Of a stretch of 64,000 nucleotides of DNA, positions 465 through 8,142 are shown one piece after another. The stretch is taken from positions 1,860,001-1,924,000 of the forward strand of contig NZ_CP017641.1 in the NCBI RefSeq assembly GCF_001983935.1, in the 5' to 3' direction. Within the stretch, counting starts at the first letter, position 1; the number at the start of each line of letters is the position of its first letter. The notes under the pieces are model-generated. The model made no database searches, was not told where the DNA came from, and saw nothing but the letters and a program-made list of their open reading frames with translations. The stretch comes from Fuerstiella marisgermanici (GTDB lineage Bacteria > Planctomycetota > Planctomycetia > Planctomycetales > Planctomycetaceae). The position numbers and the translations under genes were made by a program.

Positions 465-1064
465 GCCTGGAACACCTCTACGGCAAAGCCGTCCTGTTCA
501 ACGCCGACCATCAGCCGGTTGTGGCGGTTGATGATCCACCTGATTGCGGGCCGACCACAACTCGGCTGCATGGTGGTACGCCTGGCATGGCGTGTGTTTT
601 ATGGGGTGCAAGTCCCCTGTACGAGAATGGAGGTCTTGTGGATTAATGGTACATCCATTGAGCTGCTTGAATCAAGTACGAGACGAGGGCAACTGCGGGG
701 AGGTAACGAACCGTGGGGAGGAAGCCTGCGAATGCGCCGTTAAGCTGACACTCAACAGTCGTCGTCAGTCGCATCTTCGTCAAAGCTGCGAGGTTACGAA
801 CAGAAATCGGATACAAGGCCGGTGCGGACAGGTGAGTGAGCCAATCATCACGAAACCGTCTCCGTTCATCCGCATTGGTAAATCCGGAGCTTGTGCAGCG
901 AAAGTCACACGCCTTATCCAGGGAGATCCGTCGTTCGTATCTGTTAGAAGAGCTTGCTCAAAGGCAGAGCGATTCGTGGTCAACACGTTTCGTGATCGAC
1001 GGAAGTCAGCAGAGGTCGTAGTACTGTTTCGTCACACACCACTGACGACAGGAAGGACCGAACG

Positions 1065-2492
1065 ATGAATTCCAGGGAGGAGTCTTCGACCAACTCGACA
1101 CGAGGTGGGTGGTCTGCTCGGCAGACAAATCCAGTTCCCCGAACGGGGATGACCGCGTCGGCGTCGGACAAGCAGCCAGCCCTGAACGACCGTGGTTCCA
1201 CGGTCGAACGTTTGTTTCCAGAGATGATGATGGAAGCCGTCGTTGATGAATCCAACATGGAACGCGCCTGGCAGAAAGTCCGGTCGAACCGCGGAGCCCC
1301 TGGCCCCGACGGCATCACGCTGGATGAATTTCTGACATGGTTCCGACCACGCTGGGAACTCATCCGACGACAGCTTCTCGACGGCACGTATCGACCTTCA
1401 CCGGTGCGACGCGTGACCATCGACAAGCCGGATGGCGGCACACGGCAGCTCGGTATTCCGAACGTGCTGGACCGCGTGATTCAACAGGCCATCCTGCAGA
1501 TTCTGACGCCCGTGTTCGATCCGCACTTCAGCGATTCGAGCCACGGGTTTCGCCCCAACCGATCCGCTCACGGAGCCATGCAACAGGTTCAGCGGACGAT
1601 CAAGGCAGGCGGCAAGTTCGTGGTGGATATGGACCTTTCAAAATTCTTTGATCGAGTCAACCACGACGTGCTGATGAACCGAATCGCTCTTCGCGTTTCG
1701 GATTCACTGCTGCTGAAACTGATCGGCCGTTACCTGCGAGCGGGCGTGATCGTGGACGGCGAACTGCAACCGAGTACCGAAGGAACGCCACAAGGTGGCC
1801 CGCTGTCTCCGCTACTTGCCAACATCCTGCTGGATGATCTGGACAAGGAACTGGAACAACGCGGTCTGCCGTTCGTGCGTTACGCTGACGACTTCGTGAT
1901 CTTCACGAAGTCTGAACGTGCCGCGCGTCGAGTGTTCCGATCGGTGCAGCGTTTTCTGACCGAACGTCTTCGTCTTGTTGTTAACGAAACGAAGAGCAAA
2001 GTGGTGCCGTGGCAGGAACTTGAGTTTCTTGGGTTCTGTGTTCGCGGTCGCTACTTTCGGATCAGGCTGAGTGACAAATCGCTTCAGCGTTTCAAGCGTC
2101 GCATTCGAGAACTCACCGGTCGCAGCTGGGGAGTTTCGATGGAACGTCGCTTGAGTGAACTGCGAAGTTATCTTCGCGGCTGGGCGGGTTACTTCTGCCT
2201 GGCGATGGAGTTGAAACTGTTCGATAGGCTCGACCAGTGGATCCGTCGTCGGATACGCATGTGCTTCTGGAAGCGGTGGCGACACGCTCGCACACGCAGC
2301 CGAGAACTCGTGCGTTTAGGGGTTCCCCGTCGACAGGCGATTCGTCATGCGAAAAGTCGCAAGAGCTACTGGCACATGGCCAAGACCATCGCCAGCGGTG
2401 TGGGCTTTACGAACGCGCTGCTCGTGGAATTGGGTCTATTAAGCCTGAAACACCTCTGGAACGAACTGGCTCCACTTCGTCGAACCGCCTGA
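1065..2492 (+). CDS. ltrA: Group II intron reverse transcriptase/maturase (outer intron)
   Basis: This is a 475-residue retron-type reverse transcriptase of the LtrA family. It would copy intron RNA into DNA during retrohoming and help the intron RNA fold for splicing. RT blocks are clear: GAPGPDG near residue 78, the HGFRPNRSAH block, DLSKFFDRVNHD, GTPQGGPLSPLLANI, and the catalytic YADDFVIF at about residue 273. A maturase (X/GIIM) domain fills the C-terminal third, with LRGWAGYF and the ending GLLSLKHLWNEL. No HNH endonuclease zinc motif follows, so the protein is of the endonuclease-less type. The stop codon lies inside the 5' strand of domain V (the TGA of CCTGATG), an unusually tight overlap. 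The frame is intact even though the host intron is disrupted. Confidence 0.95.
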   Translation: MNSREESSTNSTRGGWSARQTNPVPRTGMTASASDKQPALNDRGSTVERLFPEMMMEAVVDESNMERAWQKVRSNRGAPGPDGITLDEFLTWFRPRWELIRRQLLDGTYRPSPVRRVTIDKPDGGTRQLGIPNVLDRVIQQAILQILTPVFDPHFSDSSHGFRPNRSAHGAMQQVQRTIKAGGKFVVDMDLSKFFDRVNHDVLMNRIALRVSDSLLLKLIGRYLRAGVIVDGELQPSTEGTPQGGPLSPLLANILLDDLDKELEQRGLPFVRYADDFVIFTKSERAARRVFRSVQRFLTERLRLVVNETKSKVVPWQELEFLGFCVRGRYFRIRLSDKSLQRFKRRIRELTGRSWGVSMERRLSELRSYLRGWAGYFCLAMELKLFDRLDQWIRRRIRMCFWKRWRHARTRSRELVRLGVPRRQAIRHAKSRKSYWHMAKTIASGVGFTNALLVELGLLSLKHLWNELAPLRRTA

Positions 2493-2494
2493 TG
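2482..2494 (+). ncRNA. Domain V of outer intron, 5' strand
   Basis: GAACCGCCTGATG is the 5' half of the catalytic domain V. Its partner strand is not adjacent: it lies at 4550-4573, on the far side of the inner intron. The pairing of ACCGCCTGA with TCA-GGTGGT (one G-T wobble) and the completed TGCG tip show that the two pieces were once contiguous. Confidence 0.8.
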
Positions 2495-2615
2495 GGCGAG
2501 TAGGATGGCGTCTTTCGGGTTTAGGATGCGGTTTGTGTTCCCTGTTGGCCACCCGTTTCCTCTGGTGGTGTCACAATATTTTATCCGTGTCCGATTGTAC
2601 GCTCAACCCCTCTCA

Positions 2616-2648
2616 GAACCGGACGTGCGCCGTTAACGCATCCGGCTC
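2616..2648 (-). ncRNA. Domain V of inner group II intron
   Basis: The 33-nt minus-strand segment folds as GAGCCGGA / TCCGGTTC at the base, TGCG / CGCA at the tip, and a two-base CG bulge on the 3' side, the canonical form of group II domain V. It lies 26 bp downstream of the reverse transcriptase stop codon, the normal distance. No stem defect is visible, so the inner intron RNA may still be catalytically competent. Confidence 0.85.
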
Positions 2649-2673
2649 CCGACCATCACTTGTCACCCGGTCA

Positions 2674-4245
2674 TCACTTTGGCTGTATCGCAATCAGGTC
2701 AGTCAGCTTCGAAGGAGATGCCAGGGGAAAGCGAGCTATGTACGCATCGAACTGAGGCCAGGTCTTTGACTTCCTCTGCGAACGACGATTGAGCCAGCGG
2801 AAGGCCAGCTGCTTTGCTGCCTGGCGGAATTTCATCAGTTGGGACCAATTGTCATTGATTCCATAGTACTGATAATGGCCACGCAGCTTCGCATTCAACT
2901 TCGCCCAGACTTCGGACAAAGGTGTCGTCAGATTCCGTCGGAACCAATGCTTCAGATCGCCTACCTTAGCTCGGTATTTCTTACTGGCTGTCTTCCGTTT
3001 CGGCTTGAACTTTCCCGCACGACTCAGGCCGCAGTAATGAGTGAAGCCGAGGAAGTCGAACGTCGCGGGAGCCCCTTCGCCAAGACGCTGGCAATCGCGT
3101 CTCGCAAAGCGGCCGAACCGCAGCAGTTTAGTCTTCTCTTCGGCCAGCTCCAGCGAGTATCGGGCCAGTCGCTTCGGTAGCACATCCTGAAAGCGTCTCG
3201 CGTCAGACTCCAGTTCGAACGCACAAATGAAGTCGTCCGCGAAGCGGACAATGTACGATTCACCTCGCATACGCGGCTGCACATCCCGGTCGAACCATTG
3301 GTCCAGGACGTAATGCAAATACACGTTCGCTAATAACGGTGAAAGAACCGAGCCTTGCGGAACACCTTCGTCAGTGTTACGGCGACGACCTTCGATCATC
3401 ACACCGGACTTCAGAAAGCGCTGGATCAGGGCCAATAGCTTCGGATCGGAAATCCGCTTTTGTAGCAGTTCGAGCAAACGTTCATGACAAACGTTATCGA
3501 AGAAGCCACGGATATCCGCGTCCGAAATCCAGCTCACTTTCCGGGTCGCGATGGTTTGACCGTGCACACTTAAAGCCTGGTGGCATGACCGTCCCGGACG
3601 GAAACCATAGGAAGTCTCACAGAAGTCGACTTCGTAGATCCGTTCCAGAATCATCACGACCGCACGTTGTACGATCTTGTCTTCCACACTGGCGATACCC
3701 AGCGGTCTGGTCTTGCCATTCCCTTTCGGAATGTCACGACGAAGACTGGGCTGAGGCCGATACGCACCACGGTGTAATCTGGTTAACAGGTCGTGCAGGT
3801 TGTCCCGCAGATTCGACTCGTATTGATCCACCGTGACACCGTCGACTCCGGGTGCCTTGCCTCGCTTGAGCTTGCGAAACGCATACCACAGCAACTCGTA
3901 ATTGAGCAGCGAAAAGAGGTTGTTAAACGCCTCTTCAGAGTACGTTTCCGCGCGTTGGGTGATGCGATCCAGTCGATCAAGCACCGGTGATCCGCCACTG
4001 AGTGCGGTCGGTGTATCGCTGGAGTCGCGTGATGGCCTGGCGGCCTTCCCTGCACCCGCATTACCGGGCTTCAATTCACGCGATTGGTCTTCGCGCTTCA
4101 ACGGTACTATGCCGCCATCCGACTTCCCAGAGTCGTCTGCACTCCTTGCCTTTTCAGCTTGTACGTGCATACTCGTTTCGTCGTGATTGGACGTCACGTC
4201 GAACAAGAACAGCTGGGATCTCACTGGTTGCTTCATTGGCATCAT
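2674..4245 (-). CDS. ltrA: Group II intron reverse transcriptase/maturase (inner intron)
   Basis: This is a reverse transcriptase/maturase of about 523 residues, counted from the MMPMKQPV start; the frame stays open upstream to 4359. RT blocks include KAPGVDGVTV, DIPKGNGKTRPLGI, YGFRPGRSCH, DADIRGFFDNV and GVPQGSVLSPLLANVYLHY. The catalytic box is FADDF rather than YADD, a variant tolerated in this family. A maturase domain follows, with LRGHYQYYGI and WLNRRSQ near the C-terminus, and there is no HNH motif. Sequence and domain V differ clearly from the outer intron, so this is an unrelated lineage that landed in it, not a self-copy. Confidence 0.93.
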   Translation of the reverse strand: MMPMKQPVRSQLFLFDVTSNHDETSMHVQAEKARSADDSGKSDGGIVPLKREDQSRELKPGNAGAGKAARPSRDSSDTPTALSGGSPVLDRLDRITQRAETYSEEAFNNLFSLLNYELLWYAFRKLKRGKAPGVDGVTVDQYESNLRDNLHDLLTRLHRGAYRPQPSLRRDIPKGNGKTRPLGIASVEDKIVQRAVVMILERIYEVDFCETSYGFRPGRSCHQALSVHGQTIATRKVSWISDADIRGFFDNVCHERLLELLQKRISDPKLLALIQRFLKSGVMIEGRRRNTDEGVPQGSVLSPLLANVYLHYVLDQWFDRDVQPRMRGESYIVRFADDFICAFELESDARRFQDVLPKRLARYSLELAEEKTKLLRFGRFARRDCQRLGEGAPATFDFLGFTHYCGLSRAGKFKPKRKTASKKYRAKVGDLKHWFRRNLTTPLSEVWAKLNAKLRGHYQYYGINDNWSQLMKFRQAAKQLAFRWLNRRSQRKSKTWPQFDAYIARFPLASPSKLTDLIAIQPK

Positions 4246-4549
4246 GTGTAGCGCGATCGTGGCCTTCGACCCCGGGTCTCCGAGCTTCGCTCGCCAAAAC
4301 GCGAAACTCAGTGTTGCCTTTAGCAGGTCCGAATGCCTGGGCAGATACCGAGAAAACATGCATTTCGGGGCTCAATACCATTCACGGTTTGGGCGGCCAG
4401 CCCAGTCCATTCGTCCTCACTACCTTTCTGTGTACGCTTCAACGCAACTGTTACCAGTGACGCTGCAACACTCGATACCGGGCCTCAGGCTAAGAGTTAC
4501 CCGGACGGGATTCGCACCCGCTTGTCAATAAACCATTTCCAGTTCGCTC

Positions 4550-4607
4550 CGGACCCGCATGTCAGGTGGTGTGGGGAGGGTCACCGGAAACGGTGGCTCT
4601 TACCCGA
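4550..4607 (+). ncRNA. Domain V 3' strand, domain VI and 3' end of outer intron
   Basis: CGGACCCGCATG-TCAGGTGGTGTG completes the domain V begun at 2482-2494. It is followed by a TCACCggaaaCGGTGG hairpin that fits a short domain VI and by the 3' terminal CTTACCCGATT. The exact last base (4605-4609) is not fixed. Confidence 0.7.
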
Positions 4608-4639
4608 TTTGGTATCCGCCGTTTTCCGCTGGCGTATCG

Positions 4640-5297
4640 TCAAACTTCGGTTGGTCTTGATTCGACTTCCAATTCTGGTTTCCGGTCCAGCAACGTCCGG
4701 AAAAATGACTCCAGATCAGACTTCTCAAAGAAAGCCAGGGTGCCGATCCAGTGAACTTGCTTTCCGTCTTGTTTTGTTAGGGTCAAACTATGGTCTCGCA
4801 ATTGTTGGCGAGCTTCGGCTGCTCCCCGGATGGTCGCAGCTGCCCTTCCCGGGCGAGTTGCCAAGACAGCTGCTTTCTCCAATGTGGAAGCATATCGCTC
4901 CATTGCGACCTTGAACTGTCCTGACGAGATACCTTTTAGTTCCGCCAGTTTGACGCAGGAAATTCCGAAGCAGACATGTTCCTGGTTGATCGACAGCCGT
5001 TTTTCTCCGGTGTAGCCGGTTTAGCATCCATTCGAGAGACAAGAATGGTCCGGCGATCAACACAATCGTACACACCCACCAGACTGGATCTTTATAGAGT
5101 GGGGCGGGACGGCCGAAAACCTTGGCACACACAAGTATGGAAAGCACAACGCCACCGAAGAAGATGACCGTCTTCAGGATATCCGAGCCAAGTGCCCCAG
5201 CCGATGCAAGCTGACGACATTTGCTTCGTGGTATCGGTTCCCAAGTCGAATTCAACCGGGACGTCTCGGAATCCATAACTATTTCCATTTGGTTCAA
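4640..5297 (-). pseudogene. Small membrane protein gene with a one-base frameshift
   Basis: The first frame (from 5297) gives a soluble N-terminus and two transmembrane segments (DILKTVIFFGGVVLSILVCA and WWVCTIVLIAGPFLSL), ending in WMLNRLHRRK. The natural continuation is in another frame: RLSINQEHVCFGISCVKLAE, then a helical stretch and an EVESRPTEV end. The frames meet at a run of five A on the minus strand (TTTTT at 5000-5004); removing one base joins them into one protein of about 218 residues. The family is not recognised. The C-terminal half would face the cytoplasm. The lesion may be a homopolymer sequencing error or a true mutation. It sits just beyond the 3' end of the outer intron. 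Confidence 0.55.
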
Positions 5298-5723: not shown

Positions 5724-7039
5724 TCATCCGGGACGCTCCCGAAACGTGTTCCACGCGGGACAGTCTGGTCCCGAGAAGATGTCTCGCCAGCTTGTCCGGT
5801 GCACTCGCTCAGTCAATTCCAACTCGCCGCCGCACGTTGAACAACGTCGTCCGGGAAACTCATCGTTCGTTTCGACGAACACGTCTTCCGCTGTGGGAGT
5901 GTCGTTCGTTGTTGCGTCGTCAACAGCCTGTCGCAGGCGACGACACTCCGCCACGTAACGTTTGAGATGATGATTGCTCCACCCACCGTAGCCGCGCGTC
6001 TTCGTGAAGCCGCGCGGAAGAATGTGCAGGCACCAGCGACGAACGAACGCCTGCGCAGGAAGTTCGACGTCTTCAACCTCATCACTGCCGCCATGCCGGG
6101 AGCCCGTTCGCGCCGTGAAGGTCACCCTGCCGCGTTCGTAGTTCACCAGCCGAGCGTCCGAAATCGGACCGCCTGTCAGATACCGAGCCAGATACTTCAC
6201 GATATCCTGCGGCTGCGATGCTTCCGTCGGCGGAGGCTGGATGTAGGTCACCCACGACGTCTTCTCCAGTGGTGCCAGAAATGCTTCGAACTCCGCCTTA
6301 TCCTGCAGGTGAGCCCAGTCGCCGGTCAACCGGAGTTCTCCTTTCGCGTGCAGTCAACGAAGACCGGCCAGGAACTGTTCGCGAAATTCGAAGCGAAGAT
6401 CATCGGCGTCGACCAGCCACCATCGCGTCGAACGTTCGTGTCGTGGAGGAACCGAATTCTTCCAGGTGCCGGGATTTGTCAGGGATGGTCCGCCGCCCGG
6501 CACGACCGCATGGACATGCACGTGAGCATCCAGGTGTTGGTTCCACGTGTGCAGCACCATCGCCGCGGCAGCTTCGTAAGCCTGTTCGTCTTCGAGCACT
6601 GTTTTGAGCGACTTCCACGCCGCGTGAAACAGCAGATTGAAGATCACTCGGCGGTTGCCCAGGGCCAGCGACGACAACTGCTCCGGGAGCGTGAAGACAA
6701 CTTGATAGTAGTTCACTCCGTCGACGATCCTCTTCATCGCCGAATCCACCCATGCCGCGCGAGACGCGCCGCGACACTGAGGGCAGTGGCGGTCGCCGCA
6801 CGAATTCGCAATACGAATGCCTGTATCGCATTGCGAACACCAGTGCCACGATGCGCCCAGCGCCGCCGTGCGACACACCGAAATCTTCGACAGCACACTC
6901 TGCACCTGACGCACCGCCTGTCCCGGGTTCCCACGAACGAATTCTGCCGCGTTGTCCTTCAGGATGTCGATGACGCCGGGACGCCCCGGCAGGCGATGGC
7001 GTGGATTGTCGCTTTTGTAAGTGACATCGCAACCGCCGA
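5724..7039 (-). pseudogene. IS91-like HUH transposase with one in-frame stop (module 1)
   Basis: Minus-strand frame with the full IS91 architecture: VIDILKDNAAEF N-terminus, a zinc finger (CSQCDTG ... CGDRHCPQC), FTLPEQL, the HUH motif in DAHVHVHAVVPGGG, FREQFLAGLR, then a TGA at 6354-6356. The same frame continues LHAKGELRLTGDW and reaches the tyrosine motif in VKYLARYLTGGPISD, ending with a C-terminal zinc-binding CSTCGGE. The stop replaces what is probably CGA (Arg), so one C-to-T change breaks the gene. The start codon is not evident: no ATG or GTG lies in frame just after the integrase stop, and the upstream ATG at 7039 is in another frame. It directly follows the tyrosine recombinase gene, as in module 2. 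Confidence 0.8.
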
Positions 7040-7045
7040 CATCGG

Positions 7046-7981
7046 TTAATCTGTCGTCGGTTTCCTGCCGTCCGAGCGGACGCTCACATCCGCTGCGCCC
7101 GGTGCCGCCCATCCCGGAAGTTGTCTCACCGGCAGCCAGTCCGCCGGACTGGGCACGCTGTTCAGATGCAGGCGTCGCACATGCAGATACTTCATCGTCG
7201 TTGAAAAGCTTTTGTGACCCAGCAGGCGACTGATCGCCAGCAGATCGACTCCCGCTTCCAGCAGGTGAGTCGCAAAGCTGTGGCGCATCGTGTGTGGCGT
7301 GATGTTGCGTTCGATGCCCGCTCGTGCTGTCGAAGCTTTGATCACTTTTTGAATGGTGGTCGGAGCCAGAGGAACATCCCTGGTTCGTCCGGGAAACAGA
7401 TATGTCACCGGACGATACTGCTTCCAGTACTCGCGAAGTTCTTTCAGCAGTCTCGGCGACAACGGCACGCGTCGTTCCTTCGCTCCTTTGCCGCAGGTCA
7501 CTCGCAGCTGCATTCGCTGGCTGTCGATGTCGGCAATCTTCAGGTGAGCCGCCTCGTTCAGCCGCAGCCCGGCCGAATAGAGAGTCAGTAGAAAAGTCCG
7601 ATGTTTGATATTCGTCGTACATTCGATCAGCCGAGAAACTTCTTCCCCGCTGAGAACTTCCGGAAGGGTCTTCGGGCGCTTGTCGAACGGCACCATCTTC
7701 ACCACCCACTCGCGAGGGTACGTGTGGCGGTACAGAAAACGTAGGCCACACACGGCCTGATTGAAGGAGCTCCAGCCAACTTTCCTCACTTCGATGAGGT
7801 GCAGTTGAAACGATCGCACGTCTTCGGCGGACGCCTGTTCCGGTGACTTGCCGAGAAACTCGGCGAAGCGGCCGACATGATACGTGTAGGCGTCAATGGT
7901 CGCCTGAGCAAAGTTGCGCAGCTTCATATCATCGGCCATGCGTTTCGTGAGCACAGTTGTGCGAGATTGCCAGGGCGTCAT
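7046..7981 (-). CDS. Tyrosine recombinase (module 1)
   Basis: This 311-residue phage-type integrase cuts and rejoins DNA through a tyrosine-phosphate intermediate. It has an N-terminal SAM-like core-binding domain (about residues 10-95, with YTYHVGRFAEFLG) and a catalytic domain with all expected residues: Arg in SAGLRLNEA, Lys in GKGAKERR, HxxR in HTMRHSFATH, His in LGHKSFSTT and Tyr in MKYLHV. The ATG at 7981 was chosen because the core-binding domain begins just after it; an upstream extension to 8122 lacks family similarity. The gene ends right before the transposase frame, so the two are probably co-expressed. Integrase plus HUH transposase pairing is known for a subset of IS91-like elements; what each enzyme contributes to movement is not established. 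Confidence 0.92.
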   Translation of the reverse strand: MTPWQSRTTVLTKRMADDMKLRNFAQATIDAYTYHVGRFAEFLGKSPEQASAEDVRSFQLHLIEVRKVGWSSFNQAVCGLRFLYRHTYPREWVVKMVPFDKRPKTLPEVLSGEEVSRLIECTTNIKHRTFLLTLYSAGLRLNEAAHLKIADIDSQRMQLRVTCGKGAKERRVPLSPRLLKELREYWKQYRPVTYLFPGRTRDVPLAPTTIQKVIKASTARAGIERNITPHTMRHSFATHLLEAGVDLLAISRLLGHKSFSTTMKYLHVRRLHLNSVPSPADWLPVRQLPGWAAPGAADVSVRSDGRKPTTD

Positions 7982-8107
7982 GGTGGTCACTTTCTGAGTG
8001 AAGGAAGAGTTACCGCGTGATGGAAAATCACACGCGAGCTGTTCACACAGAATGCCACAGCATCCAGACAACGCGACCTGTTTCGTTATGAACAATCGCT
8101 GAAGCCA

Positions 8108-8142
8108 TGTGCGATCGCACACCCAACCTGGAAATTCCAGGC
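8108..8142. promoter_or_regulatory. Two palindromes upstream of integrase 1
   Basis: TGTGCGATCGCACA (8108-8121) and CCTGGAAATTCCAGG (8128-8142) are perfect palindromes, followed by more CCTGGAA-type copies up to about 8190. They lie upstream of the integrase 1 gene. They could be an operator, a recombinase binding site or part of an element end; the sequence does not decide. Confidence 0.35.

Follow-up and report, generated by a model that had tools for sequence, protein, structure and literature searches.

A group II intron inserted antisense in domain V of group IIC introns in Fuerstiella marisgermanici, with guides that pair with the interrupted domain

We analyzed a stretch of 64,000 nucleotides from the planctomycete Fuerstiella marisgermanici (the window; positions 1,860,001 to 1,924,000 of contig NZ_CP017641.1), whose genome is a single contig of 8,920,478 bases. 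Near the start of the window lies a group IIC intron on the plus strand (576..4608, 5' GTACG ... CCCGAT 3'), which is interrupted between positions 2494 and 4550 by a second group II intron on the minus strand (2495..4549, 2,055 nt, 5' GAGCG ... CTCGCC 3'). The interruption falls in domain V (DV) of the outer intron. An earlier reading of the letters alone, without database searches (the sequence-only reading), had proposed an antisense insertion of this kind by an unrelated group II intron. Rfam matches on both strands, the exact split and the fold of the rejoined domain confirm the arrangement, and the reverse transcriptase (RT) and Rfam evidence agree that the insert belongs to another class than the outer intron.

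The outer intron was delimited as the block common to copies at different sites, and these bounds are supported by two plus-strand Rfam matches to group II domains D1-D4, at 781-904 (91.3 bits) and 968-1058 (45.2 bits). Because copies at different sites have common sequence from position 576, the 5' end is placed there, and the GTGTG at 592 is ruled out as the intron start. The sequence-only reading had set the split correctly (after 2494 and before 4550), but had started the intron 16 bases too far in, at 592, and ended it at 4607 instead of 4608. The outer RT/maturase is encoded by an uninterrupted open reading frame (ORF) of 475 aa (1065..2492, +), which scores 413.7 bits against TIGR04416, where the NCBIfam cut-off for a group II RT/maturase is 300 bits; its stop codon overlaps the 5' half of the outer DV. 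The protein is an RT of the IIC type, with GsI-IIC RT as the best PDB match (1.1e-134 over residues 55-462) and LtrA at 2.4e-46. Joined and empty outer copies alike show the IIC-type DV and domain VI (DVI), with a 2-nt bulge, a tetraloop and a bulged base in DVI. The CGC pattern of this DV, with its G-U pair, is what we take to be the IIC pattern, and the domain presumably resembles the Oceanobacillus IIC DV. The 5' exon (480..575, +) is an attC-like integron site in its bottom-strand reading, which resumes at 4609.

The 5' half of the outer DV (2482..2494, +) reads GAACCGCCTGATG and is joined to the 3' half in empty copies. The 3' half (4550..4571, +) begins CGGACCCGCATGTCAGGTGGTG, and its complement carries the two intron-binding sites (IBS2 and IBS1) of the inner intron; DVI follows at 4572..4608 (+), with its bulged base and the 3' end CCCGAT. 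When 2482-2494 and 4550-4608 are joined, much as the sequence-only reading had advised, the 72 nt fold into a DV of 9 bp, a 2-nt bulge, 4 bp and a tetraloop, followed by DVI (-43.8 kcal/mol, z-score -5.42, equalled by 0 of 200 shuffles). Across six copies (three filled ones, joined, and three empty ones) 98.8% of cells pair in DV-DVI, and 7 of the 28 pairs vary on both sides, a number reached by 0 of 500 shuffles; six of these seven pairs belong to DVI and one to the nearly invariant DV. Elsewhere in this genome, uninterrupted copies continue straight across 2494/4550, so the split is exact.

RF00029 by itself gives no match at the outer DV where this is filled, so the IIC DV-DVI copies of this genome were used to build a covariance model (R1). 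The search with it, in which 150 of 1,959 first-look candidates were scored, found 11 places in the genome, namely five intact DVs and the right halves of six filled DVs. No uninterrupted DV belonging to the outer RT, which would have spoken against a split, was found by this model search; the nearest intact IIC DV is ~161 kb away. The empty copies that the sequence-only reading had proposed to look for in related genomes are present in the same genome, and the genomes of relatives also hold intact IIC DVs (27 readable).

The inner intron has a D1-D4 core on the minus strand (4514-4260, RF02005, 138.1 bits, above gathering) and a DV with DVI at 2495..2650 (-, RF00029, 42.6 bits, gathering 40). 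Its DV carries an AGC triad, which we take as the mark of a non-IIC class, and the D1-D4 core, this DV and the DVI are those of a non-IIC intron. The inner RT/maturase ORF (2674..4359, -) encodes at most 561 aa from the first ATG and scores 359.1 bits, above the cut-off; as this ATG is inside D1, the protein probably starts at Met39, Met40 or later (4245, 4242 or below). The best PDB matches of the inner RT are LtrA (4.2e-46) and GsI-IIC RT (1e-43). Both the outer and the inner RT consist of the Pfam domains RVT_1 and GIIM and nothing else, and no endonuclease domain was found in either by Pfam. The intact DVs at 841,739, 7,141,580 and 7,142,876 show neither a gap nor a duplication at the insertion point and thereby set the inner ends at 2495 and 4549, with further support from a related element (L066, described below). 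The 5' junction with the DV target is CATGCGGGTCCG followed directly by GAGCG. A GTGCG near 4518 was rejected as the 5' end, since the empty sites give 4549; in relatives at attC-like sites the homologous base is where the intron begins, with GTGCGGACTGG.

Read on the sense strand of the inner intron, the target is ACATGC-G-GGTCCG^CATCAG. The inner exon-binding site 1 (EBS1, CGGACC, 4326..4331, -) lies where the Rfam alignment shows a hairpin loop of D1, which we take to be the EBS1 loop, and pairs at 6 of 6 positions with IBS1, the complement of 4550-4555. EBS2 (GCATGT, 4356..4361, -), upstream of EBS1, likewise pairs at 6 of 6 positions with IBS2, the complement of 4557-4562. The chance of such a fit is ~4^-6 for each fixed 6-mer guide.

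Six copies of the inner intron are present in the genome, 100% identical over 2,055 bases, and all six are antisense, at the identical base of a DV, between two outer DV halves. The outer left part is identical in the window, L023 and L024, where the exons differ; compared with the window, it is 97.6% identical over 369 nt in L026 and 91% identical over 183 nt in L029, both of which are 5'-truncated so that only these lengths remain left of the insert. The outer intron of L027 looks ORF-less, without the RT region; it has blocks of 79-91% identity, and ~0.8 kb of this intron precedes its DV. The sequence past the outer 3' end differs at all six filled sites. The DV flanks vary (..CTGATG/CATGTC, ..CTGGTG/CATGTC and ..CTGGTG/CACGAT), and since the bases adjacent to the insert differ among outer types while the insert is constant, at least three insertions are counted. 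The outer introns that carry the insert are of three or more sequence types. The suggestion of the sequence-only reading that DV can serve as a landing site is strengthened beyond what was claimed, as the same base is used in at least three outer types of this genome and in another organism. That reading did not contain the guide/target pairing as a mechanism, nor the apparent origin of the insert in a family that targets attC. The six identical copies suggest that the inner intron, which is not of class IIC, is mobile, able to splice and to retrohome.

Truncation and loss of the RT region are also found elsewhere among the IIC copies. The 5'-truncated copies are L025:611-854, L028:1028-1313, L029:1419-1601 and L026:6195-6563, with the inner intron in L026 and L029; such truncation is what incomplete reverse transcription would be expected to leave. 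IIC introns without the RT region are L027:2096-2905 with 4961-5021 (filled) and L025:1397-2148 (empty), and they would need an RT in trans.

The filled and intact DVs of the genome differ at IBS1. All six filled DVs have the exact IBS1 GGTCCG, and none of the five intact DVs has it (Fisher p 0.002); the intact variants are GGACCG (three), GGTCGG and AGTCCG. The IIC DV model matches 59 of 170 family genomes, the host genome included. In the relatives GGTCCG is found in 23 of the 27 intact DVs that are readable among 29 loci; R1 had matches in 58 relatives, and for 29 of these the top-scoring locus was taken. Two loci gave no match to the regular expression (L109 and L120), of which L109 has the exact IBS1 by eye. 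The chance of finding 0 exact sites among five distinct intact DVs is 0.0006; both p-values are optimistic, since R1 was built on the copies of the host genome and the sequences are related. The pattern fits an invasion of matching DVs and the survival of mismatched ones. Many equal-scoring IIC DV matches per genome were observed in some members of the family (G074 11, G117 10, G174 7 of 11), suggesting recent IIC expansions.

A single scan of genome contigs identified 18 loci related to the inner intron, all planctomycete. The locus L066, from the metagenome-assembled genome (MAG) KLAP214, encodes an RT 77% identical to the inner one; this element, too, interrupts a IIC DV in antisense orientation, at the base used in the window, and the opposite strand carries remnants of a IIC RT. 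Of the other 17 loci, 14 have a 3' exon starting with CGGAG, GGGAG, CGAAG or ACGGAG (by eye), and three are unreadable. The 5' exon is readable in ten attC-type loci, with GATGCAC in L067, GATGGAC in L077 and AATGCAC in L080, mostly GTGAAC-like ends in the six copies of Planctomycetes bacterium CA13, and six readable bases in L068. The six CA13 introns (L069-L072, L075, L076) are identical members of the inner family, each in an attC-like site, and attC seems to be the regular home of this non-IIC intron family. Most readable relatives of the inner intron thus appear to home to attC-like sites, on the strand opposite to the IIC introns. In the 170 genomes of the family/order and 392 genomes of the phylum, an inner-type RT at E <= 1e-140 was found only in the host genome and in G064 (74%), the two being alone also within the 170; the G064 match looks like the L073 element by its position and score. 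Plasmid relatives are all <60% identical (4,440 records). In viral contigs two stretches fitted a peptide pattern, with no relative confirmed, and the junction pattern gave no match.

An alignment of the 5' region shows other EBS1 and EBS2 sequences in the DV members than in the attC members, next to conserved stretches; the second intron base also differs in the DV lineage. EBS1 pairs with IBS1 at 6 of 6 positions, all Watson-Crick, in both DV members (window and L066). The DV-type EBS1 forms 0 or 1 of 6 pairs with attC-type IBS1s, and attC-type EBS1s form 1 to 3 pairs with the DV target. With its own target, the attC-type EBS1 pairs at 6 of 6 positions in L067, L068 and L080, at five positions plus one G-U in L077, and at 5, 6, 5, 6, 6 and 5 of 6 in the six CA13 sites (G-U counted). 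Because each EBS1 fits its own target, attC or DV, the guides have apparently moved from attC to IIC introns. In the RT tree the window and L066 are sisters (0.966), and the attC-type L077 is outside the group of the window, L066 and the other attC types (0.974). We infer from this topology the direction of the switch, from attC to DV, which would predate the split of the window and L066 lineages.

Nine inner-family sites and five IIC intron sites align as one inverted-repeat family, in which 84.3% of cells are paired and GTT is invariant. In this alignment both partners change in 14 of the 16 pairs, a count reached by 1 of 500 shuffles, and the covariation score is 0.505 compared with 0.179 when shuffled (0 of 500). 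The alignment includes L075 and leaves out L026, because ~7.6 kb containing other genes separates the ends of the latter, which probably belong to two distinct fragments. A regular expression for the site, written after the sites had been seen, matches 6 times in 27 sequences (476 kb, both strands), 0 times in one mononucleotide shuffle and 0 times in the window itself. The sites look like attC by their inverted-repeat shape, their AAC and GTT cores and the integrase of the genome. A full-length integron integrase is encoded at L089 (G000:C1:1099022-1099984; TIGR02249, 339.9 bits, cut-off 265). The attC-like sites flank the dispersed IIC introns of the genome, and, since the exons of the IIC copies belong to this family, the outer introns look like IIC-attC introns, insertion after a terminator or in attC being characteristic of group IIC introns.

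Retrohoming by pairing of intron RNA with DNA is established for group II introns. We conclude that the inner intron very probably retrohomes site-specifically into the top of the DV of IIC introns and thereby disables them, and that its ancestors homed to attC. The catalytic steps are what we infer from the observed locations, bounds and pairing. The homing site would be the top of the IIC DV, in antisense to the IIC transcript; there the inner RNA would pair its EBS2 (GCATGT) with ACATGC and its EBS1 (CGGACC) with GGTCCG, which is complementary to the apical helix and tetraloop of DV. It would then reverse-splice after GGTCCG, and the inner RT would copy the intron in. Being antisense, the insert could not be spliced from the IIC transcript, so the IIC intron would be left with no continuous DV and should lose both splicing and mobility. 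The outer intron of the window is presumably dead, judging by its split catalytic domain, and six of the eleven IIC introns with a DV found here would be inactive. Homing at attC would be ancestral, and the guides of the DV lineage fit IIC introns, whose own homes are attC sites of that kind. Retrohoming accounts for the site, the orientation, the missing duplication and the identical copies.

Several observations weigh against this conclusion. The inner ends GAGCG...CC deviate from the group II consensus GUGYG...AY as quoted in PMC7923331, though the attC relatives start with GTGCG and have the same end; a variant UUGCG..GU is reported in the same paper. The IBS2 of L027 is weaker (4 Watson-Crick pairs and one G-U of 6), the node that would single out one attC relative as sister of the DV pair is supported at 0.471, and L066 is the sole other DV case found. 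Three of the five intact DVs (GGACCG) may share one ancestor, and one of the 27 relatives also has GGACCG. Finally, the composites of the window, L023 and L024 have different exons but match exactly in the insert and in the outer parts to its left and right, so the composite may have moved as a unit. The outer intron would then still be mobile, for instance if the insert formed a long extra arm on the apical loop of DV or if help came in trans. This is unlikely. The same insert is present in diverged and in 5'-truncated outer introns (183 nt in L029, 369 nt in L026), therefore insertion into dispersed outer copies is required anyway, and splicing with a DV split by 2 kb would have no known mechanism.

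The identity of all inner copies in the genome would also be expected from a single chance insertion into a DV, followed by ectopic recombination or gene conversion among the IIC copies. We regard this as very unlikely, as the adjacent bases vary on both sides of the insert, L066 is a separate and diverged case, and both EBS1 and EBS2 fit the site. An assembly artefact, or an outer DV that was already degenerate so that its split is meaningless, is hardly credible: the outer DV does lack the AGC triad found in most classes of group II intron, but the insert occupies six places in a single-contig genome and one in an independent MAG, and the wide occurrence of the IIC-type DV in the family, host genome included, speaks against degeneration.

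Beyond site-specific retrohoming itself, it can tentatively be proposed, with rather less than even confidence, that an arms race is under way, the inner lineage having specialized in disabling IIC introns and the intact IIC introns being one-base escape variants (all five in the host genome, while the DVs of relatives where no DV-type inner intron turned up mostly match the guide, 23 of 27).

Other features were observed in the genome. An ORF at 6354-8122 (-) of the window, which presumably encodes an IS91-type transposase, is beside a tyrosine recombinase with a weak TIGR02249 match below the cut-off, and similar recombinase matches are near the filled sites L023 and L024. A further group II DV is present at L031 (G000:C1:8024823-8024933; RF00029, 44.8 bits), with no RT match adjoining.

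In Euglena chloroplast twintrons the insertion is in domain V or VI. They are introns within introns, as here, but as described in PMC4424553 the inner intron leaves before the outer one splices, in contrast to the unspliceable antisense insert described above. The present case is an intron nested in an intron, but not one with common orientation in which removal of the inner intron restores the outer, as the inner intron is on the minus and the outer on the plus strand at all six places. That introns home into other introns is known, and so is the presence of IIB introns in integrons (PMC2882425, PMC4424553, PMC5572947, PMC7923331). The closest likeness is to the F3-in-F1 twintrons of Thermosynechococcus elongatus, in which the inner group II intron homes to a single conserved position within the outer one; according to PMC2882425 the inner copies are identical and the outer ones diverged, which its authors read as recent independent insertions, and outer and inner introns can be separately spliced and mobilized by the intron-encoded protein. 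That site is between two start codons of the domain IV ORF and the inner intron is ORF-less, whereas here the insert is antisense, in the catalytic DV, and has an RT of another class. The nested introns of Methanosarcina acetivorans likewise reflect repeated site-specific homing into group II introns, and the portion of the review available (PMC4424553) does not describe them as antisense or in DV. Group IIC-attC introns, as presented there, resemble our outer introns in their IIC RT and attC-like exons, but here such introns are the targets of a second one. The IIB introns of halophile integrons and clusters of attC sites lacking integron-integrases (CALIN) are, like most readable relatives of the inner intron, non-IIC, without an endonuclease domain and at attC, and the accessible text of PMC7923331 describes none retargeted to another intron. 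We found no report of antisense homing into DV in the open-licence PMC literature, the literature searched, and as far as these searches reach it is a new variant of intron-into-intron homing.

The finding brings together two unrelated intron families that meet at attC-like integron sites. It offers a natural record of guide retargeting, in which EBS1 and EBS2 change with the target and the flanking intron is conserved, and the order of events, spread of the outer intron and then of the inner one, is testable in strains. No part of a group II intron is more constrained than DV, so a parasite that targets it aims where its prey has the least room to change, and a testable prediction is that resistance would arise through single-base changes in the DV loop.

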